From: Phycisphaerales bacterium
GTDB taxonomy: Bacteria > Planctomycetota > Phycisphaerae > Phycisphaerales > SM1A02
Length of the DNA: 64,000 bases
Direction: 5' to 3'
NCBI GenBank assembly: GCA_022446905.1
Contig: JAKVBT010000005.1
Span: 676,451 to 740,450, forward strand
In this document: positions 53,050 to 64,000 of the stretch, in pieces
How positions within the stretch are numbered: position 1 is the stretch's first letter
How the letters are laid out: every line of letters begins with the position of its first letter
Position numbers and translations under genes: made by a program
Notes under the pieces: generated by a model
Told to the model about the DNA's origin: nothing
Database searches by the model: none
What the model saw: only the letters and a program-made list of their open reading frames with translations

Positions 53050-53676
53050 CTACGGGATCGGTTGCGCCAGTTCCACCACCGGAAGCCAATCCACATCCAT
53101 GCGGATTGACATCGTGTCGATTGACTCCCAGTCGGTCCCCCAACCCAACAATGCCGCTCGAGCTGCAAGCCATGGATCATCTGCCCGAGGCTGACGGTCT
53201 CTCAATGCGGCATCGCGTCTGACCGCTGGCAAACCACCTGGCATCAAACCCGAAACGGTACGCAGCACAGCCTCTACATTTGGATCTGCCAATTTCTTCC
53301 GAGCTGCGGCCCGCCGGCCCGCTGCAAGGTCGCCCAGCAATCGCGCAGCCTTGACTCTTGCCTCTTGTTGCAGCACAGGCTGAGGCCGCGCTATCGCAGG
53401 GAGTAATCCGCCATCTGCTTTCAACGCTGAATGATTTCCGGATGTGGCGTGCTGCCCGGCCGCTGGACTCACTTCGATAATCAGCAACGCTGCAGATGTC
53501 GCGTGTGTTACGGGCGACGCCGACGCTGCCTCCAGCGCTGCTGCTCGAATTTCAACTACCGGCGCCCCTGCAGACTGCAGGCGCTCCGCCTCCAGTAGCC
53601 ACTTCTCAGCAATATCCACAGCCGCAACATGCATCGCAGTGAACACCGTGAGCACATAGAACACCGAGCACATCAT
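53050..53676 (-). CDS. Secreted protein of unknown function, last gene of ExbBD operon
   Basis: 208 residues. A signal peptide (MMCSVFYVLTVFTAMHVAAV) precedes an Ala-rich helical mature part with AARLLGDLAAGRRAAARKKLADPNVEAVL and a C-terminal ESIDTMSIRMDVDWLPVVEL. No family is recognised; the helical part could be TPR-like. The start overlaps the upstream gene's stop (ATGA at 53673-53676), so it belongs to the eight-gene operon and is probably periplasmic. Confidence 0.75.
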   Translation of the reverse strand: MMCSVFYVLTVFTAMHVAAVDIAEKWLLEAERLQSAGAPVVEIRAAALEAASASPVTHATSAALLIIEVSPAAGQHATSGNHSALKADGGLLPAIARPQPVLQQEARVKAARLLGDLAAGRRAAARKKLADPNVEAVLRTVSGLMPGGLPAVRRDAALRDRQPRADDPWLAARAALLGWGTDWESIDTMSIRMDVDWLPVVELAQPIP

Positions 53677-55718
53677 GGCAGGCCTCCTCCACTGAGCCAT
53701 TGATCCCACAATGTGGTCATAGCCCGCTCAATCATCAGCAATTGATCAACAGCATCCCGCGATGAAACAAGGTCAATTTCAACTGCAGGCTGTTCAAGTC
53801 GTTGTGCCATCGCCTGCAATGTGCGCAGGCGAAGCCGCACCACGTCGTCCAATTGGAGAGACCAACGACCATCGGCTTCAACAGGCAGTCCAGTCCATCC
53901 ATGAGTCACCGCAGCGACTACGTGCTCGCCGACACCGCCAATCAATGCAGCCTCACGACCAAGAGATTCTTCCCACTGATCCCACAGAACTTTGGAAGCA
54001 AGACGAGCAGCATGTAACTCAATGACCCGCCGCGCAATGGACTGCTCTGCAGCAACAGCCCAATCTGGCGATGCCTCCTGAAGAACGTTGTCATCAGCAA
54101 TTGTTGCCACAAAGTTTCTGACATCGCCCGACGGACTGCTTGGGGGCGGCGCATCAAGCAGCGCGCGTATGACACCAACATCATTCATGTGCCGGTCAAT
54201 CAACAAGGATTGCATCGCAGTACGTGGCCGCAGATCGCCATACATGGCCTGTCGAGCGGCTGTCTGCGCATCAGATGCGCTCAGTGGCCCGATCGTATCC
54301 TTGATGCGCCGCAATGCCCCTGACATACCTTGCATGCCACGTGACGGCCCGAGATCCCCTGGAGCATCGCCGTCCCGAATCTGCGACGGCAGTATGCCAT
54401 CGCCAAGAGGACGAGCTTCAAGTTGACTCAACTGTCCTATGGCCGTCGAGTGAAGATTGCGACCTAATGCAATTGACAATGCTGCTTCATTTAAAAGTCG
54501 CTGTCGACGCAGAAGAGCAACACGCTCAATCGTTGATGATGGCTGCTGATCGGCGAGTGATTCCTCTACCGATCGCCAGGTGGCAGACCAAACCAAATCG
54601 CCCTGCGTGATTTCTGTCGACCAGTCCACTGGCCCTAAGGCCGGGTCCAATTCACGCATCGGCCTCTGCACTTCATGGGCAGCCAGAGCGCTGTCAAGAA
54701 CAGGATCGTGACTGACATCAGCAATGTCCGCCATAAGTGCATACCAAGCCTCTGCATCAACACCTTCTTGGGATGCTGACAGGAGCGCATTTAAGTGTGT
54801 ACTTCCAGTTGCTGCCAGAGAGAGGGCATCAACCAAGGCCAATACGATTTGCCCGCGACGGGCCTTGTTCATATCGGGCCATGCACGCACGACTTGCCTG
54901 AGCAACTCCACGAGATCCTTATCAGCGGATGGCGCCGCTGACACCAACCCACGCCCCACTTCAAGAACGCGCGACATAGATACATGGTTCATTGGCAGCG
55001 CAGCATTTGACGCAGGGAACGATTCTTCCTTGGCAACAAATGCTGGCTCAGGTGCTGGCTGCATTTCAACCAGCAAAGGTGGACTGCTCGAAGCGACTTT
55101 AGGCTCATCCACAAGCGCAACAGACTGCTGAGATGATGGCTCAGGCCAGAACAGGATTCCGGCGACAAATATCGAGAGGACGATCCAGGCAAATGGCATC
55201 CAACGCCGAGCTGAACTCCCTTGGACAGCATTAGGTACTGATCCTGGAGTGGAGACACCCGCCGCCATCCTTTGTGAGCGCAACCAATCTGCCATGCCAT
55301 GCAGCACGGGAACGAAGCGATCGAGAGGCAATCCATGCCGAGCAGCAAGGCCTATTGCCCGCCGCCTAGTGCGGGGAGTCCAACCACCACGAAGTACCGC
55401 GAGCAAACGACGATCAAATGCAGTCAACTGCCTTCCATGGGCTCTTGGATGATGCTGATGAGCCCCAAGGCTGGTTAATAGAACTGAACGTGCATCCGTG
55501 AGTGTGGTCTCCGCAGCAATCCGTATCGCCTCAGGAAGTTCGCTTGCTCGCACTATTTCACAGGCATGACGCCATGCATGCTCGACACCCTGCCGATCGT
55601 ATTGAAGATTCCCAAATCCCAGCAAAACTTGCGGTGGCGCGGACTGTGGCACATCCAGCAGTTGTGCTGCCGGCAGAGGTAGACGCATCAATGCACTTGG
55701 TCGCTGCGCCTGATTCAT
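53673..55718 (-). CDS. Single-TM protein of ExbBD operon, function unknown
   Basis: 681 residues. The N-terminal cytoplasmic part (about 1-170) is helical and rich in Arg/His; one TM segment (WMPFAWIVLSIFVAGILFW) follows near residue 175. The periplasmic part of about 480 residues is helical with no motif I know. The start at 55718 sits in an ATGA overlap with the preceding TPR-like gene; longer starts would lie within that gene. Topology suggests it links a cytoplasmic element to the periplasmic machinery. Confidence 0.75.
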   Translation of the reverse strand: MNQAQRPSALMRLPLPAAQLLDVPQSAPPQVLLGFGNLQYDRQGVEHAWRHACEIVRASELPEAIRIAAETTLTDARSVLLTSLGAHQHHPRAHGRQLTAFDRRLLAVLRGGWTPRTRRRAIGLAARHGLPLDRFVPVLHGMADWLRSQRMAAGVSTPGSVPNAVQGSSARRWMPFAWIVLSIFVAGILFWPEPSSQQSVALVDEPKVASSSPPLLVEMQPAPEPAFVAKEESFPASNAALPMNHVSMSRVLEVGRGLVSAAPSADKDLVELLRQVVRAWPDMNKARRGQIVLALVDALSLAATGSTHLNALLSASQEGVDAEAWYALMADIADVSHDPVLDSALAAHEVQRPMRELDPALGPVDWSTEITQGDLVWSATWRSVEESLADQQPSSTIERVALLRRQRLLNEAALSIALGRNLHSTAIGQLSQLEARPLGDGILPSQIRDGDAPGDLGPSRGMQGMSGALRRIKDTIGPLSASDAQTAARQAMYGDLRPRTAMQSLLIDRHMNDVGVIRALLDAPPPSSPSGDVRNFVATIADDNVLQEASPDWAVAAEQSIARRVIELHAARLASKVLWDQWEESLGREAALIGGVGEHVVAAVTHGWTGLPVEADGRWSLQLDDVVRLRLRTLQAMAQRLEQPAVEIDLVSSRDAVDQLLMIERAMTTLWDQWLSGGGLP

Positions 55719-58072
55719 GGCGCATCCCCTTGAGCTAGATCCGCCTCTAAACGAAGCAGAAGTTCGCCCCATGGCGAAGGCCCCCCAGTCGGATACAGAC
55801 CAACATGTTGTCGCGCTGCAGCAGTTGCCCGCGGCAGGTCGACAAAGGACAACGCGTAAATGCCCTCGTAACGTGACCGAAACCACGCATCGCTTGTAGC
55901 TGGCAATGCATGATTGGCCCGTTGCCACCACAGCACCGCAGAATGCCAATCCTGCTGAGCCGATGCCGCCCCCGCCCGCGCGATCAACAACTCTGACGAC
56001 CCCTTCCCCAGCTCCAAGACACCCTCAAGAAGCTGGAGTGCTACTGTGTCCCTCGGGTTCCGGCGAAGCATCATTGAAGCCAGCATGCCGATCTGTGCGC
56101 GGACATTTGGGGGCACTTCTCCAAGTGGCATTGCCAGCGCTGCCGCGACTGCGGCCAACACATCCTCGTCTGTGAGATCATCTCGAGCAGCAAAGACGAT
56201 CTCCCGAAGGGCCGTCTTGACTGCAGGATCACTGCGATCCAAGATCATTGCTGCTCGCGCATCGCTTTCAGCCTGAACCAGGTCCCCCTGCTGCGCATGC
56301 CATCGTGCACGCAGCGATCGAAGTTCGACAGAAGTATCTACCACACCAACTTCTTGCGCATAATTGAGCGCTAGCTCACAGTCATCAACGCCACCAGACC
56401 CAAGTGCCAGAGATACAGAGGCCACACGGGCCGCTACTAGTCTGACCTGCGCCGGGTCACTGCTCTCAAGAAGTATGGGCATGACGGTACGCACATAGGA
56501 TGCCAGCACCTCTGGAACTTCAGGCTGCTGAAGCACCTGGTACCAAGCCACCACCTCCAGCGCCTGATCGATGAGCGCACGGTCTGGATCCGTACTGGGA
56601 ATCGCGAGCAATCGATCCATGACATCTGGACCAAGTCGCCCAGAAAGCGAAGCAAGTTGCAGTACATGTCGACGCCACCAACGGCCCGACGGCTGTTCAT
56701 GAACTGATCGTTCCAAGAGTTCAATCAACCGTGGACTGCTCGGCTGCGCTTCTGCCATCGCATCGATTGCCAGCGCCAGACACTCATCGACCTGAAATCC
56801 TGCGTCCGCAGAAGCCACATATGCAGCGGCCGCTTCTATCGCCTCGCCTGCCTTCCGCCACGCCCAACCAAGTTGATAATCGTACGTATTGGGCAGACCA
56901 GTTCCGCCGCTGCTTGCATGATTCCCAGCCTCCGCCATGCGAACCGCCACCTCACGCCATGCCTCAGGCTGCGCATCACGCTCTAGTGCCTGATCCCATG
57001 CAGCCAGCGCCTCGGCCAATGCCGCCAACGGACCAGTCACCACCAAGGGGCAGCGGCGCGCGACCAATCGCAAACGCTCTAAATCCTGCAATTCATGCAA
57101 CCTGCCGATCGCAGTGGACACTACTTGCGTTGCCTCAGACGTTGACTGGGCACAAGACTCCAAGGCGGCCAAGACCAGAAGATCTGGGTCATCCTCAGCA
57201 GATTGCTCAATTTCACGACTGATCAGATCAAAACGACCTGCTGCAGCAGCGACAAAAACGTGCCATCTTGCGGCCTCAGCTCGAACGACATCTGGAACCA
57301 CTGTATTGGTCGCCGCCTGTATCCACTCCAAAGCAGCATCGTGTCGATCAGTAGCAGATTCAACAAGGGCCAACCCAAGCATGCTGCGGGCAACCGTTGG
57401 ATCACGACGCAAATCCAACGAAGCATATTTTGGCGACAGCCGATTGGCCGGGAGTTCCAGCACCCGAGCAAAGGACTCTGTGGCATTGCGCCGGGCAACA
57501 ATATCGCCAGAGGCAATGCTCTCAAGCAAACGTGCCCACCCATTCAAAGACCATGCCCTTCGAATCAGCCGATCGATGGCCACCATTTCATCACGACGGG
57601 CTATCGCCACAGCGGCAGTGCCTGCACCTGGCGTATCAGCCAACTGATCACGTCGCCGCTCCAAGTCACGAATCAACAACTTGATGCGTCGACTTGAAAA
57701 AGAGGAAGTGGCTGGCACATACTGCTCCGCCTTGCCGAGTCGACGCATCCACTGAGCTCGATGCATGGTTCGAATTGCAGAGGAAGCCAACTCCAGTTCG
57801 AGTTCTGCAGCAAGCAATAAATTCAGCTCGCCAAGGATCGCCTCTCCCTGCGCCTGACGATGCTGCTGCAACATTGGGTCAGCCAACTCGCGCAGATCAG
57901 ATGCGATGGCCTGCGCAGCTAAAGCGACATCCTCGGGTGACTGCCGGTGCCGCAACATGGCCTCTACTACACAATGGCTCATGTCCTGCTCTCGCAGCCA
58001 ATCAGCCACTGTCTGGCCATCGCCAGTAAGCATGCAGGTCGCAAGAACCACTTCAAGGAACATCAAGATCAT
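55715..58072 (-). CDS. TPR-like helical protein of ExbBD operon
   Basis: About 785 residues. A weak signal (MILMFLEVVLATCMLTGDG) may export it. The body is an alpha-helical solenoid with TPR-like units (ALEWIQAATNTVVPDVVRAEAAR, LNYAQEVGVVDTSVELRSLRARW, ARAAMILDRSDPAVKTALREIV). Starts at 58072 and 58063 are possible; both overlap the end of the second ExbD gene. It is likely a periplasmic partner of the energised complex. The specific role is unknown. Confidence 0.78.
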   Translation of the reverse strand: MILMFLEVVLATCMLTGDGQTVADWLREQDMSHCVVEAMLRHRQSPEDVALAAQAIASDLRELADPMLQQHRQAQGEAILGELNLLLAAELELELASSAIRTMHRAQWMRRLGKAEQYVPATSSFSSRRIKLLIRDLERRRDQLADTPGAGTAAVAIARRDEMVAIDRLIRRAWSLNGWARLLESIASGDIVARRNATESFARVLELPANRLSPKYASLDLRRDPTVARSMLGLALVESATDRHDAALEWIQAATNTVVPDVVRAEAARWHVFVAAAAGRFDLISREIEQSAEDDPDLLVLAALESCAQSTSEATQVVSTAIGRLHELQDLERLRLVARRCPLVVTGPLAALAEALAAWDQALERDAQPEAWREVAVRMAEAGNHASSGGTGLPNTYDYQLGWAWRKAGEAIEAAAAYVASADAGFQVDECLALAIDAMAEAQPSSPRLIELLERSVHEQPSGRWWRRHVLQLASLSGRLGPDVMDRLLAIPSTDPDRALIDQALEVVAWYQVLQQPEVPEVLASYVRTVMPILLESSDPAQVRLVAARVASVSLALGSGGVDDCELALNYAQEVGVVDTSVELRSLRARWHAQQGDLVQAESDARAAMILDRSDPAVKTALREIVFAARDDLTDEDVLAAVAAALAMPLGEVPPNVRAQIGMLASMMLRRNPRDTVALQLLEGVLELGKGSSELLIARAGAASAQQDWHSAVLWWQRANHALPATSDAWFRSRYEGIYALSFVDLPRATAAARQHVGLYPTGGPSPWGELLLRLEADLAQGDAP

Positions 58073-58469
58073 CCCATCGCACAGATTCAATTCCTGCTGC
58101 CCGAGCCGCCTCTACAACGGCCACGCCTGCGCCGACTGGCACATTCCCATCAGGGGACACGGTGAGCCCTGCATCCCCAGCAAGATTGGCCATCACAATC
58201 TGAAGATCCTCAGGATCCTGAATCTGATGCGCCCCGATGCGCCATTCCGGCTGGTCACCAACCATGACAATGCGTACGACCTGTGGCTCCAGACTCGCCG
58301 TCTGAGAAGAGCGACCAGTCAGGTGCGTCGTCAGTGTGGCCTCCTGTGGCCGAATGATGGTCGCCACCATAAAAAAGATCAGCAACAGAAAAACCACATC
58401 AATCATGCTTGCGAGGCTGAGGGTGGCCCGCTTTCTAGAATGAGTTTGTTCGGTCCCAAAATGCATCAT
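58053..58469 (-). CDS. exbD: Biopolymer transport protein ExbD/TolR, second copy
   Basis: 138 residues. A short cytoplasmic N-terminus leads to the TM helix LASMIDVVFLLLIFFMVAT with the conserved proton-path Asp, then a periplasmic TolR-type domain ending at the conserved AGIESVRWDDLD. The start overlaps the first ExbD stop by one base (TGATG). Two different ExbD proteins with one ExbB are common in planctomycete and Bacteroidota systems. Confidence 0.92.
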   Translation of the reverse strand: MMHFGTEQTHSRKRATLSLASMIDVVFLLLIFFMVATIIRPQEATLTTHLTGRSSQTASLEPQVVRIVMVGDQPEWRIGAHQIQDPEDLQIVMANLAGDAGLTVSPDGNVPVGAGVAVVEAARAAGIESVRWDDLDVP

Positions 58470-58879
58470 CAGCGATCCGTCACCACACCAAGATCGAGTT
58501 GACGCACCCCAAGTGACCGCAAGGCATCAAGCACAGGGTCAAGTTGCATGGATAGGCATCTCCGATCCGCACGAACAAGCACACGACGGTCACTGGGCGA
58601 ATCACCAACTACTGATCCCAACAAGCCCACCGGAATTGGTTCGGGTAGTTGACCACGTCGGATCACGCCCTCGGCATCAACATGCAATACCAAATCATGA
58701 ATGTCCGAAACCACGCGCTGTCCTGTCTCTTCTGGAAGCAACATGTCTTCTGGCCAACGATGCGCTACAGTTGCAGCAACCATAAAAAACACAATCAGAA
58801 GGAAAACGACATCGATCATGGCCGTCAAATCAATTGACGAGCCCGCTGCCGTAAGGGATGAAGTACGACCGAAACGCAT
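58469..58879 (-). CDS. exbD: Biopolymer transport protein ExbD/TolR, first copy
   Basis: 136 residues. TM helix DLTAMIDVVFLLIVFFMVAA with the conserved Asp, then a periplasmic domain with VLVRADRRCLSMQLDPVLDALRSLGVRQLDLGVV, the ExbD C-terminal pattern. It starts one base inside the exbB stop (TGATG). With ExbB it forms a proton-driven motor in the inner membrane. Confidence 0.93.
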   Translation of the reverse strand: MRFGRTSSLTAAGSSIDLTAMIDVVFLLIVFFMVAATVAHRWPEDMLLPEETGQRVVSDIHDLVLHVDAEGVIRRGQLPEPIPVGLLGSVVGDSPSDRRVLVRADRRCLSMQLDPVLDALRSLGVRQLDLGVVTDR

Positions 58880-59553
58880 CAGGCCCCACCACTCCGCTCA
58901 ATCAACCCAGCCATACCATCAGACAAGTCGGCCACTTCACTTGCCAGCGCCTCCACTCGATTACGAAACCATGAATGCGCCGCCACACACGGAATGGCCA
59001 GTGACAGACCAAGCAGTGTGGTCACTAGCGCCATACTGATGTCCCCTGCCAGTTCCGCATACTGAGAAGAACCCCCGTCTGAAATGGTGTCAAAGGCGCC
59101 CACCATTCCAAGGACCGTGCCAAGCAAGCCCAGCAGCGGCGCGATCGCCGCAACAAGCGACAATGGTTCCAGGGAGCGTAAATATCGCGCGACCTCTTCC
59201 CTGCCAGAATCTTCCATTGCCGTGCGAACTTCAAATACGCCCATCGGAGAAGCGATCTGCCGTTCTAATCCAGCACCAACTACATGCGACAGCATGCTGC
59301 TATTGGCCGGATCCCGAGTGAGACGAAGTGCCACAGCCAGATCCCCAGCCGACAGCGATTGCCGCATGGACTCGACCAACTCGTCCGGCATCATTGCGCC
59401 GCGACGTATTTGAATGAAATGTACGAGCACCAAGGCCAAAGCGATAACGCTTAGGGCAATGATGATCCAACCAACCAACCCCCCATCCTGCACAATATCC
59501 CACCAAGATCTTCCAGGTGAGACCACAGTGGATGTGGCAATCAAAATCTTCAT
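58879..59553 (-). CDS. exbB: MotA/TolQ/ExbB proton channel protein
   Basis: 224 residues with three TM helices: GGLVGWIIIALSVIALAL near residue 25, LVAAIAPLLGLLGTVLGMVGAF (the ExbB/TolQ signature) and ISMALVTTLLGLSLAIPCVAAHSWF. It forms the pentameric channel around ExbD. Its start overlaps the preceding gene's stop (ATGA at 59550-59553). The first in-frame Met is used; no signal peptide. Confidence 0.93.
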   Translation of the reverse strand: MKILIATSTVVSPGRSWWDIVQDGGLVGWIIIALSVIALALVLVHFIQIRRGAMMPDELVESMRQSLSAGDLAVALRLTRDPANSSMLSHVVGAGLERQIASPMGVFEVRTAMEDSGREEVARYLRSLEPLSLVAAIAPLLGLLGTVLGMVGAFDTISDGGSSQYAELAGDISMALVTTLLGLSLAIPCVAAHSWFRNRVEALASEVADLSDGMAGLIERSGGA

Positions 59554-60614
59554 GGTGTCGTTTTCTCCTCTTGATGTGTTCGCATAAGCAACTGGGTCAG
59601 GGAATGCGCATTTGAGACTGCTGGATGAGTCGGATAACGAGCCGCCAGCATGCGATGCAATGTCTGTGCAACTCCAGGGCGATCATCTTGGCGCATATGA
59701 GCTGACAATGCAGCCAGCGCCCACCCTGTCAGCATTGGGTTGGCCTCTCCTTGAGTTGCAGGCAGCCAAGCCAGTTCTGCCACCCCTGCTCGCTGTCGGC
59801 CGCGACCAGATTCAGACAGTAATGACCAACCGATCGCAAATCGAATCCAGATTTCTTTTTCAGCATCCGCAGCAGCGAGCATTGATTCCAGCTGTTGGCG
59901 CGCCTGCTGACGGTCCCCACGATCACCATAGATCGCGCGCACAAAACACATCAGCAGCCCTGTGTCATCCAACTGCTCACCCTCAGCAATAGCAAGCCAC
60001 TGCGCCACCAAAGACCCCATAAGGGGATCCGATGGCGTTCCATAACCACGCAGGTCATATGCCAGTCGGTCTCGCGCTACATTGTCTGGAAGAAGTGGAG
60101 GCAGCCAAGCACACCACCCCGTCTCAGAGTCGACAATAGGTTCCCAGTCGGCAGACAAACCTGAACGCAATCCACGCGTCACATCAAGCAGCGGCACCAC
60201 TGCCTCAGCCAACGCTCCACGATTGAGCAGGCATCGCAATGTGGCATCGGCTACAAACAGATCGGACCTGTCCATCTGGGCGTGCTCACGCGCTGGCAAC
60301 TCCCGTAGCAGCCGCTCGGCCCCTGTGAAATCACCGCGTTCCATGCGACGGCGAATGAGATTCAGCTGCTCCCCACGGGCTCCCCAACGCTGCCAACCCA
60401 CTCGTTCGCCCAGCTGCTCCCCCTCGATCTGTGAGATGCGATCCCATGGAATGGACTCGGTGCCGCCAACAACGGATACCAAAACGCCTCCCCGATCAAT
60501 CGAAGTGATCTGCCCATTGACTGGAACCTCCGAGCCAATAATCCGCAGCAGGTCGGCGCTCACCAGGGAAGTGCCCACCCAAAGGAGAACCACACCCATT
60601 GAGAAATACTTCAT
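59550..60614 (-). CDS. Secreted protein of ExbBD operon
   Basis: 354 residues. A signal peptide MKYFSMGVVLLWVGTSLVSA precedes a small beta domain (VNGQITSIDRGGVLVSVVGGTESIPWDRIS, resembling the SHD1/SLA1 or Sm-like folds seen in planctomycete secreted proteins) and then a helical TPR-like part. Function unknown. It lies between the vWA protein and exbB with ATGA overlaps on both sides. Confidence 0.78.
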   Translation of the reverse strand: MKYFSMGVVLLWVGTSLVSADLLRIIGSEVPVNGQITSIDRGGVLVSVVGGTESIPWDRISQIEGEQLGERVGWQRWGARGEQLNLIRRRMERGDFTGAERLLRELPAREHAQMDRSDLFVADATLRCLLNRGALAEAVVPLLDVTRGLRSGLSADWEPIVDSETGWCAWLPPLLPDNVARDRLAYDLRGYGTPSDPLMGSLVAQWLAIAEGEQLDDTGLLMCFVRAIYGDRGDRQQARQQLESMLAAADAEKEIWIRFAIGWSLLSESGRGRQRAGVAELAWLPATQGEANPMLTGWALAALSAHMRQDDRPGVAQTLHRMLAARYPTHPAVSNAHSLTQLLMRTHQEEKTTP

Positions 60615-61591
60615 GGTGCAACCCCGCCAAGAGGCACAATGGTGATTGAGCCCCCAGTTGGGCCCACCAATCGATCGAGGGGCGAATCCGGTGCTGCTTG
60701 TTCCAAAGCAGCTGCTGCATCATGAGTCAGAACCACTGCGTGAATAACCGACTCCAAGCCACGCCTGCGGTTGGCAGCAGACACACGATCAAGCATCAAT
60801 GACGCCGGACCAACCTCCCCATCCGTAAGAAAGAAAATCGCATCTGGCCGGTGCTGCCCTTCCATCACAGCAAGAAAGCCCGGCCCAGGCACGGTGCCAC
60901 CTGTGACCAAATCCGGAATCTCGTTGAGCAAGCGCCGACACATACTGTCGGCAATCCCCGCCTCGAGAGTGACCCAGCCCTGCCCAAAGGGTTGATAGAG
61001 ATCATCGCTATAGAACACCACACGCACACTGGCAAAGTCTGGCAATCCTCGAAGGGACTGACAGAGCTCACCAAGTGTTCTTTCGATGCGGGCCCCTGTC
61101 ATGCTGCCTGACATATCCACTACAAAGGCAATACGTCTGCCCTCTGCCCGCGCACCAAAAAACCCAGTCTCAGGCTCATCGATGGATGAAGGCAGTTCAA
61201 GACCGCCCCACCCGACACCATCTGGCCCTTGGCTATTTCCCGATGCCATCCCCTCCAGACTGGGACCAGATGGCAGTGGCGATGGCAAAAGATCCAGTGT
61301 TGCCGTCGGCAGGGTGATGCTGGACAAAGCTGAATCCAAACCTGATTCTGGCTGGACGGCGGGCATCTCAGACACAGAGTCCGCCATCAGTGGCGGTGGG
61401 CCCAGTTCGATACGAACAAGTGTCTCCCCGGACGAATTCCCAGGCATCCAACGTCCAGCAAGCCACCAGACCAGCACCAGATGCACCAGAACCGAGCCCA
61501 AGACCGCAAGCAGAAGCAAGCGATACCCTTTGGGGGATCTGCCTGTTTCCGCCGTCCACGCGTCCGCTTGCTGGGCTGAACCTACCTGCAT
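60611..61591 (-). CDS. TonB-like membrane segment fused to a vWA domain
   Basis: About 326 residues. A cytoplasmic N-terminus leads to one TM helix (LLLLAVLGSVLVHLVLVWWLAG) with Ser-x3-His (SVLVH), the TonB/TolA contact motif for ExbB/ExbD. A Pro/Ser/Leu linker of about 90 residues follows. The C-terminal half is a vWA domain: IAFVVDMSGSMTG (MIDAS DxSxS), the Thr position in VTGGTVPGPG, and FFLTDGEVG. ATG 61591 is favoured (TACGCT 7 nt upstream), ATG 61597 being the alternative. First gene of the eight-gene operon. Confidence 0.88.
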   Translation of the reverse strand: MQVGSAQQADAWTAETGRSPKGYRLLLLAVLGSVLVHLVLVWWLAGRWMPGNSSGETLVRIELGPPPLMADSVSEMPAVQPESGLDSALSSITLPTATLDLLPSPLPSGPSLEGMASGNSQGPDGVGWGGLELPSSIDEPETGFFGARAEGRRIAFVVDMSGSMTGARIERTLGELCQSLRGLPDFASVRVVFYSDDLYQPFGQGWVTLEAGIADSMCRRLLNEIPDLVTGGTVPGPGFLAVMEGQHRPDAIFFLTDGEVGPASLMLDRVSAANRRRGLESVIHAVVLTHDAAAALEQAAPDSPLDRLVGPTGGSITIVPLGGVAP

Positions 61592-61598
61592 ATCCATC

Positions 61599-61604
61599 AG
61601 CGTA
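61599..61604 (-). promoter_or_regulatory. Putative -10 (TACGCT) of vWA-ExbBD operon
   Basis: TACGCT lies 7 nt before ATG 61591, consistent with a leaderless operon transcript. The match to consensus is modest. Confidence 0.3.
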
Positions 61605-61665: not shown

Positions 61666-62412
61666 ATGGCCGATACAGACCGACCTGACCGAATACTGCT
61701 CAAAATCAGCGGCGAGAGTTTCTCTGGACCAGATGACGGGGGCATCGACGCCACCGAGCTGGACACCATTGCCAGAGAGATTGCCGACGCGGCCTCTCAG
61801 GAGGTAGAACTGGCGGTTGTCGTCGGCGGCGGGAATATTCTCCGCGGGGCTCATCTTGCCAAGCGACTCAAGATTGACCAATCTTCAGCTGACTACATGG
61901 GCATGCTCGGCACCGTCATGAATGGCATTGCGTTGAAGGAAGCATTAGAACGACTCGGCCAACCAGCCCGGGTCATGTCCGCGATCAACATGCCAGCCAT
62001 TGCTGAACCATTTATTCGCAAGCGTGCCATTCGACATCTAGAAAAGGGTCGCGTGATCATTCTAGTAGCGGGCACGGGCAACCCATTCTTCACGACTGAT
62101 ACCTGCGCGTCTTTGCGCGCCATCGAACTGAACTGCACTCGACTCCTAAAAGCAACGAAGGTCGATGGAATCTACTCCTCTGACCCATCCAAGGACAAGA
62201 ACGCCACTCGATATGAAAGTCTTTCCTTCAGTGAAGCGATCGAGCGGCGACTTGGTGTCATGGACTTGACAGCACTGTCCATGTGCATGGAACACGATCT
62301 GCCTGTCGTTGTCTTTGACTTCAAAGAAACTGGCAACATCCGCCGGGTCGTCGGCGGCGATGCCATTGGCACTCTTGTCACCAACTCAGCAACACCAGTT
62401 GACACACACTGA
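61666..62412 (+). CDS. pyrH: UMP kinase
   Basis: 248 residues of the amino-acid-kinase fold. It starts ILLKISGESFSG, has VELAVVVGGGNILRG (UMP/ATP binding), DYMGMLGTVMNGIAL, and GTGNPFFTTDT, all typical of bacterial PyrH. It phosphorylates UMP to UDP. AACGAGGACACC before the ATG provides a Shine-Dalgarno. frr follows 46 bp on, the usual pairing, but rpsB-tsf, which often precede it, are absent. The upstream vWA operon is divergent. Confidence 0.96.
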   Translation: MADTDRPDRILLKISGESFSGPDDGGIDATELDTIAREIADAASQEVELAVVVGGGNILRGAHLAKRLKIDQSSADYMGMLGTVMNGIALKEALERLGQPARVMSAINMPAIAEPFIRKRAIRHLEKGRVIILVAGTGNPFFTTDTCASLRAIELNCTRLLKATKVDGIYSSDPSKDKNATRYESLSFSEAIERRLGVMDLTALSMCMEHDLPVVVFDFKETGNIRRVVGGDAIGTLVTNSATPVDTH

Positions 62413-62421
62413 ATCACCATC

Positions 62422-62436
62422 CGGGCAAACAGCCCG
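62422..62436 (+). other. Small hairpin between pyrH and frr
   Basis: CGGGC-AAACA-GCCCG could form in the 46-bp gap and modestly attenuate read-through; no T run. Confidence 0.25.
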
Positions 62437-62458
62437 ATAGCAAACTCTGGAGCGACCT

Positions 62459-63022
62459 ATGGCCGGCGACATCATTAAGGAAGCCAAAGCGGACATGAGC
62501 CGCTGCATCGAGTATCTCCAGAATGAACTTCGTGGAATTCGAACCGGTCGCGCCAGCACTGCGCTACTGGAGTTCCTGAAGGTCGAGGCCTATGGCAGCC
62601 AGTGCGACCTCAGGGATGTCGCCGCCGTGTCGGTCCCCGAAGCCACCCAATTGCTGGTGAAGCCATTTGATCCAACGCTTAAGAACGGCATCGCTAAATC
62701 GATAGAAACTGCCGAACTTGGACTCAACCCACAAGTTGAAGGCGAGTCCATTCGCATTAATATTCCGCCGCCCTCGGCAGAGCGACGCAAGCAGTTGTCT
62801 GGCCAGGTCAAGAAGATGGCCGAAGAGACCCGCGTGGCCATTCGCAATGTTCGACGCGATGCCATCAAGGCAGTTGATAAACAGGTCAAGGACAAATCTG
62901 ACTCGATGTCCGAAGATCAAGGCAAGGATCTTCGCAGTGAAGTCGACGATTTGACCAAAGCGCAAATCGGAAAAGTCGACGAACTGTGCGACTCAAAAAC
63001 GACTGAGATTGAAGCGATCTGA
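62459..63022 (+). CDS. frr: Ribosome recycling factor
   Basis: 187 residues, normal length. MSRCIEYLQNELRGIRTGRAS is the family N-terminal helix, NIPPPSAERRKQLSGQVKKMAEE and VAIRNVRRDAIKAVDK are the C-terminal domain-I helices. RRF splits post-termination ribosomes with EF-G. A TGGAG Shine-Dalgarno is 6 nt upstream. The gene ends 8 bp from the convergent rpoN. Confidence 0.97.
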   Translation: MAGDIIKEAKADMSRCIEYLQNELRGIRTGRASTALLEFLKVEAYGSQCDLRDVAAVSVPEATQLLVKPFDPTLKNGIAKSIETAELGLNPQVEGESIRINIPPPSAERRKQLSGQVKKMAEETRVAIRNVRRDAIKAVDKQVKDKSDSMSEDQGKDLRSEVDDLTKAQIGKVDELCDSKTTEIEAI

Positions 63023-63030
63023 TCGACGTT

Positions 63031-64000
63031 TCAATAGGTGCGGCGTAGGCGTGCCGGGGGAATTCCCAGCCGCTGGCGATACTTGACCACAGTGCGACGC
63101 GCAATGTCAACGCCCTGCTCCCGCAGTGCTTCTGCAATAGCCTCGTCTCCAAGTGGCTTCGCTGGATCTTCGCCTTCGATAATTTCAACCATCACTTGCC
63201 GCACAGCTTCCCATGACATCTGTTGACCGCCTGAAGTCTCCGTGCCTCCGGAGAAGAAGCGCCGCAGTGGAACAATGCCCCGCGGGGTTTGCATCCACTT
63301 ATCCGCCACCGCGCGGCTCACTGTGGCCACATGTACCCCAAGAAGATCTGCCACTTCCGTCATCGGCAATGGCTTGAGTCCTCGCGGACCAACATCAAAC
63401 CAGGCCCGCTGCCGATCAATCACGACCTCGACGACACGCAAAACGGAGGTCCGGCGCTGATTAATGGACTCAATGAGCCAGCGTGCATTATTGACGTTCT
63501 TGGACAAAAATGATCGTGTATCACCATCAAGATCTTTGTCCTTGGACATGTCTGAATAACGAGGCGACACACGCAGCGGAGGTATCAAGCCGTCACACAT
63601 TGCAGCAAAGTACTGATCACGCTCTTGATCGTATTCCACGATGACATCTGGAATAACTGGTGGCACACTCTCATCAACAAGAGTTCGCCCAGGAGACAGC
63701 GTCAGACGATGCATGTATTCCATGGCGGTCTTGATGTCATCCAGACCTAGGCCAGTCTCACGCGCAATGACTGGAAGTCGGTTCTGTACTAGATCATCAA
63801 GATGCGATTCGACCACCATGGCCACACGATCCCAAACCGCTGTGTCCTCCGGCTCACGCTGTTTCCAAGCTTCAATCTGCAGGAGCAGGCTTTGCTTGAT
63901 GGTCTGCGCGCCGATACCGGGCGGATCAACCAAATGAACCAGCAGGCCATGTGCCTGCTGCAAGGTTGCAAGTGGCAGTGCGCCCTGCGACTCCTGACGC
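63031..64000 (-). CDS. rpoN: RNA polymerase sigma-54 factor (partial)
   Basis: The visible part is the C-terminal 322 residues; the start lies beyond the right edge. LLVHLVDPPGIGAQTIKQSLLLQ is the core-binding region. The helix-turn-helix VADLLGVHVATVSRAVADKWMQTPRGIVPLRRFFSGG recognises the -12 region, and the RpoN box is ARRTVVKYRQ (canonical ARRTVAKYRE). The protein ends GIPPARLRRTY. It directs transcription from -24/-12 promoters with AAA+ activators. It is convergent with frr; no activator is in the window. Confidence 0.95.
   Translation of the reverse strand, partial: RQESQGALPLATLQQAHGLLVHLVDPPGIGAQTIKQSLLLQIEAWKQREPEDTAVWDRVAMVVESHLDDLVQNRLPVIARETGLGLDDIKTAMEYMHRLTLSPGRTLVDESVPPVIPDVIVEYDQERDQYFAAMCDGLIPPLRVSPRYSDMSKDKDLDGDTRSFLSKNVNNARWLIESINQRRTSVLRVVEVVIDRQRAWFDVGPRGLKPLPMTEVADLLGVHVATVSRAVADKWMQTPRGIVPLRRFFSGGTETSGGQQMSWEAVRQVMVEIIEGEDPAKPLGDEAIAEALREQGVDIARRTVVKYRQRLGIPPARLRRTY

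Follow-up and report, generated by a model that had tools for sequence, protein, structure and literature searches.

The eight genes at 53050–61597 of the window, which is the whole stretch of 64,000 nucleotides of Phycisphaerales DNA analysed here, are best explained as encoding an ExbBD-driven transducer that spans the periplasm and carries a vWA head, a reading to which a probability of about 0.78 is assigned, with a Tol-like part in envelope maintenance as its most likely role. A motor of the ExbB/ExbD type is commonly read as a sign of iron uptake, through TonB, or of Tol-Pal. If the machine is a true Tol equivalent, it would bear on the way in which planctomycetes hold their envelope and divide it, and in cultured Planctomycetota and Phycisphaerae the operon offers a defined set of eight genes for knock-out and pull-down work.

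According to the ORF and start calls, all eight genes lie on the minus strand, each overlapping the next head to tail, as a preliminary description made from the sequence had proposed, except that the operon ends at the best ATG of vwa, 61597, and not at 61604, which falls 7 bp beyond it. In order from vwa, the overlaps are of 4 bp (ATGA), 4, 1 (TGATG), 1, about 20, 4 and 4 bp, and the longest one, between exbD2 and g6, is shortened to 11 bp if g6 starts at the later ATG, 58063. A promoter and terminator scan of the operon gave no signal above chance and no internal break. Beside the operon, and divergent from it, are pyrH and frr (61666–63022), and an ORF at 63031–63999, convergent with frr, resembles by eye the C-terminal part of sigma-54 (RpoN).

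The first gene, vwa (60611–61597), encodes the putative force transducer, having an N-terminal TM helix with SVLVH inside it (S35 to H39), a linker and a vWA domain whose MIDAS is composed of DMSGSM (D161/S163/S165), T235 and D259, in agreement with the SxxxH helix and intact DxSxS that had been read from the sequence. The Pfam vWA match of the single window protein is weak (E 0.0014, under the gathering score); the family profile A3, for which 35 vWA relatives were aligned, finds solved vWA domains, the best of them at 8e-12, and the predicted fold is thus a sound assignment. Within this alignment, with a mean identity of 26%, S35 is invariant and H39 is present in 34/35, while all five MIDAS residues are invariant. 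Regarding the metal-dependent adhesion domain earlier suggested as the output arm, this conservation makes metal-dependent ligand binding likely, and adhesion stays putative.

The SxxxH motif belongs specifically to this helix, as it occurs in 77/80 TM segments of vWA proteins compared to 10/461 of the best TM segments of other genes from the same loci. Its exceptions include the lipoprotein-type vWA proteins of L065, L087 and L104, one member with no neighbouring exbB (L096) and one with an H-to-N change (L068). In TonB, the segment that binds ExbD follows the D-box pattern, whose definition was taken from PMC10907165. Such a pattern stands just after the TM in 33/77 vWA proteins, against 4.1 expected from shuffles, nearly all of them in Phycisphaerales; the linker of the window protein is degenerate at this point (VRIELGP), with no strict D-box.

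The motor genes were identified as first described, one ExbB and two ExbDs. ExbB, the ExbB/TolQ-like proton channel subunit (58879–59553), matches PF01618 (MotA_ExbB) at 1.3e-28, and ExbD1 (58469–58879) and ExbD2 (58053–58469), which are distinct from each other, match PF02472 at 2.5e-13 and 1.6e-15, respectively. Among relatives, the pore threonines of ExbB are found in 59/59 (T146), 58/59 (T178) and 59/59 (T179), and the TM aspartates in 50/50 (D23 of ExbD1) and 49/50 (D24 of ExbD2), the predicted proton-path residues of all three subunits being intact (98–100% kept).

Of the remaining four proteins, the shd1 product (59550–60614) has a signal-peptide-like N-terminus, and its AF2 model (pLDDT 90, pTM 0.87) consists of a five-strand β-barrel (residues 21–64) followed by a helical-repeat, TPR-like solenoid. 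From its description as a secreted SHD1-like/TPR-like protein, the helical repeats are therefore retained, TPR matches on single operon proteins being below the Pfam gathering scores; SHD1 as a Pfam family was rejected, with no match in any of 33 members, leaving the small β-barrel alone. The 785-residue g6 product (55715–58072, or from ATG 58063) is also a helical-repeat, TPR-like protein, with a hydrophobic N-terminal segment, and its family profile matches in 63 loci. A lipoprotein nature was considered for both and discarded, as lipobox-like N-termini were found in 0/52 shd1 and 4/61 g6 members.

The single TM attributed to the 681-residue g7 product (53673–55718) was located at residues ~172–190, between a cytoplasmic helical N-terminus of ~170 residues and a long periplasmic helical part, in a structure model of moderate quality (pLDDT 72); the family is present in 51 loci with a conserved TM position and has no Pfam match. 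Foldseek searches of shd1 and g7 against the PDB yielded generic helical repeats and no match at E <= 0.001. The consensus LLG...HP...LLDP at the g7 N-terminus is faintly suggestive of a J-domain, a candidate rejected by hhalign as not significant (probability 1.2%, E 0.042). Lastly, g8 (53050–53676) encodes a small secreted protein whose family is the largest of those following g7 (29 loci, the window included). In some relatives of g8 (L037, 14061–15086), the secreted protein has a zinc-ribbon-like CxxC...CxxC module, which is absent from the window protein.

Gene maps of about 100 loci, obtained from ExbB and vWA searches followed by family profiles, indicate how far this arrangement extends, the named relatives of the window being Phycisphaerales MAGs. 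In Phycisphaerales, the order vWA, barrel/TPR protein, ExbB, ExbD, ExbD, g6 and g7 recurs in about 40 loci (map tally ~39), an approximate number because ORF calling at times merges neighbouring genes, and a g8-like gene often follows g7. The order is identical up to g6 in another family of the phylum (L127–L129), and a shorter form, consisting of vWA, a 400-aa protein, ExbB, ExbD, ExbD and a protein of ~900 aa, occurs in further families within the order and the class. Moreover, wherever pyrH was matched, it adjoins the operon (51/51), and in 48 of these loci it is divergent. The proposed association of vWA with exbB/exbD was borne out by synteny in Phycisphaerales and in further orders, as these genes are adjacent in most loci examined, with a few members lacking an adjacent exbB. 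Neither of the conditions named beforehand as breaking the link to an Exb motor, vWA homologues lying apart from exbBD and a TM SxxxH that varies among them, was thus observed. Other Planctomycetota (L130, L131, L132, L134, L135, L140 and L141) have TM-vWA proteins with SxxxH beside which no exbB was found; proteins of this kind may share a motor encoded elsewhere.

Across 61 genomes of the order, the vWA profile is matched in 54, a count that a lipoprotein-type vWA paralogue can satisfy in a few genomes (e.g., G137), compared to 29 for TonB_C, 31 for the receptor barrel and none (0/61) for TolB_N above the cut-off, while the barrel/TPR family of shd1 is present in 36/61. In Phycisphaerales, TonB is outnumbered by the vWA-headed machine, which has a fixed place beside pyrH and is present where TolB is undetected. 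In addition, 28/32 genomes lacking TonB_C have the vWA family, a distribution that argues against the energising of receptors and would favour a general envelope role.

The genome from which the window derives is a 2.58 Mb draft, 96% complete, in which absences are not absolute. It contains four MotA_ExbB loci, the present operon among them, and three of the four adjoin a vWA gene (3/4). One is a second vWA-ExbB-ExbD-ExbD-TPR operon (L066, 2814–7576, on C78) with SILFH as the TM motif, and the MIDAS of its vWA protein looks degenerate in the later loops. In another (L065, 4484–12113; ~602.5–610.1 kb of C45), a 714-aa lipoprotein-like protein (LTGC), whose C-terminal vWA domain is close to that of the operon, is convergent with a set made up of a 981-aa gene, a divergent ExbB gene and genes for two single-TM proteins; L087 and L146 have gene sets that resemble it. 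The fourth is an orphan, an ExbB/TolQ gene that lacks a neighbouring ExbD (L067, 5167–5844, on C56). The statement that no TonB-dependent receptor, Pal or TolB is present holds for the operon, and the 96% complete draft gave no match to TonB_C, to a TonB-dependent receptor barrel or, at E <= 0.01, to TolB_N, but it does encode two Pal-like lipoproteins elsewhere, with a coiled coil and an OmpA domain (L143, 7397–8113, and L144, 7002–8585), neither of them beside tol genes. The second of these genes adjoins an MlaE-type permease gene.

From these data, we infer a complex in which an ExbB ring and two different ExbD subunits would form a proton motor in the inner membrane, the vWA protein acting as its force transducer. 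The latter would dock on ExbB through its TonB/TolA-type SxxxH helix. In the majority of relatives from Phycisphaerales, a D-box-like strand just after the TM would also pair with the periplasmic domains of ExbD. Proton flow may then shift the linker or put it under tension, whereby the MIDAS-bearing head would exert a pull on a ligand in the periplasm or outer membrane, or would bind and release it in cycles, with shd1, g6 and the periplasmic part of g7 as a possible scaffold or as ligands in the periplasm. The most likely role would be the maintenance or remodelling of the envelope, as for Tol, rather than nutrient import. A bolder version, which we regard as tentative and rather doubtful, is that in Phycisphaerales this near-universal, vertically inherited and proton-driven trans-envelope machine functionally replaces Tol-Pal, maintaining or constricting the envelope with a MIDAS head and helical-repeat scaffolds in place of TolA, TolB and Pal, and with g7 as a link to the cytoplasm.

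Other readings of the same genes were weighed. A machine powering surface adhesion or gliding motility, with a vWA head like the myxobacterial gliding adhesin, is suggested in PMC12204202, and in other systems vWA/MIDAS domains do mediate adhesion; however, a near-universal, vertically inherited locus beside pyrH fits a housekeeping role better than one in motility, the operon encodes no adhesin or OM barrel, and its vWA head is tethered to the inner membrane. We consider such a function unlikely. It is very improbable that the head serves as an alternative TonB, opening transporters of the outer membrane so that nutrients are imported, even though the motor and the TM docking motif are common to both, as the vWA fold differs from the C-terminal domain that binds the Ton box, the draft genome has no TBDR barrel match and the vWA family persists in nearly all genomes without TonB_C.

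Bat operons likewise encode TM-vWA proteins together with TPR proteins, and the operon could be read as a Bat-type (BatABCDE/MoxR) complex to which exbBD are incidental neighbours. Nevertheless, Pfam detected none of the MoxR ATPase, DUF58 and BatD families among the eight operon proteins, the SxxxH motif goes with the vWA helix and exbBD are its conserved neighbours, and this interpretation has a minimal chance of being right. A role in anti-phage defence of the Zorya type was also tried and rejected, as no PADLOC model matched.

Compared to known systems, the operon is similar to BatA/BatB operons in its TM-anchored vWA protein beside a TPR protein, but has a TonB-type TM motif instead of MoxR, DUF58 and BatD. 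It has the motor and the SxxxH helix in common with TonB-ExbB-ExbD, as do the majority of its Phycisphaerales relatives the D-box-like strand; unlike that system, it has a vWA head in the place of the TonB C-terminal domain, two ExbDs and no receptor, TonB_C not being found in the draft genome. As in Tol-Pal (TolQRA-TolB-Pal), a motor, a transducer and a periplasmic TPR protein belong to one operon with a probable core envelope role, but the TolA C-terminal domain, TolB and Pal are missing from it, in line with the TolB_N result in the order.

The closest likeness is to the SHLS-TM-vWA “force transducers” of the PVC group, which are encoded next to a TPR gene, tolQ and a tolR pair and whose TM is predicted by AF3 complex models to dock on the motor edge (Mol Biol Evol 2025, msaf138, PMC12204202). 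The central idea of a vWA-headed, proton-driven transducer is therefore already published, and the mechanism reached independently in that article matches the proton-driven machine with a vWA output arm of the preliminary description, which is supported by our results. Both have a TM with the S/H motif, a disordered linker and a vWA head where TonB and TolA have their C-terminal domain, as well as one ExbB/TolQ, two different ExbD/TolR, a co-encoded TPR protein and a PVC distribution. The differences are that vwa is the first gene here, compared to its position downstream of the motor genes in the published systems, and that the operon has the extra conserved g6, g7 and g8 and a fixed locus beside pyrH in Phycisphaerales. 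As far as the accessible part of the article goes, this layout, these genes, the fixed place beside pyrH and the comparison of vWA occurrence with that of TonB, TonB receptors and TolB are not described there. What the present analysis adds to the published idea is a form of the operon that extends over nearly the whole order Phycisphaerales and has additional conserved components.
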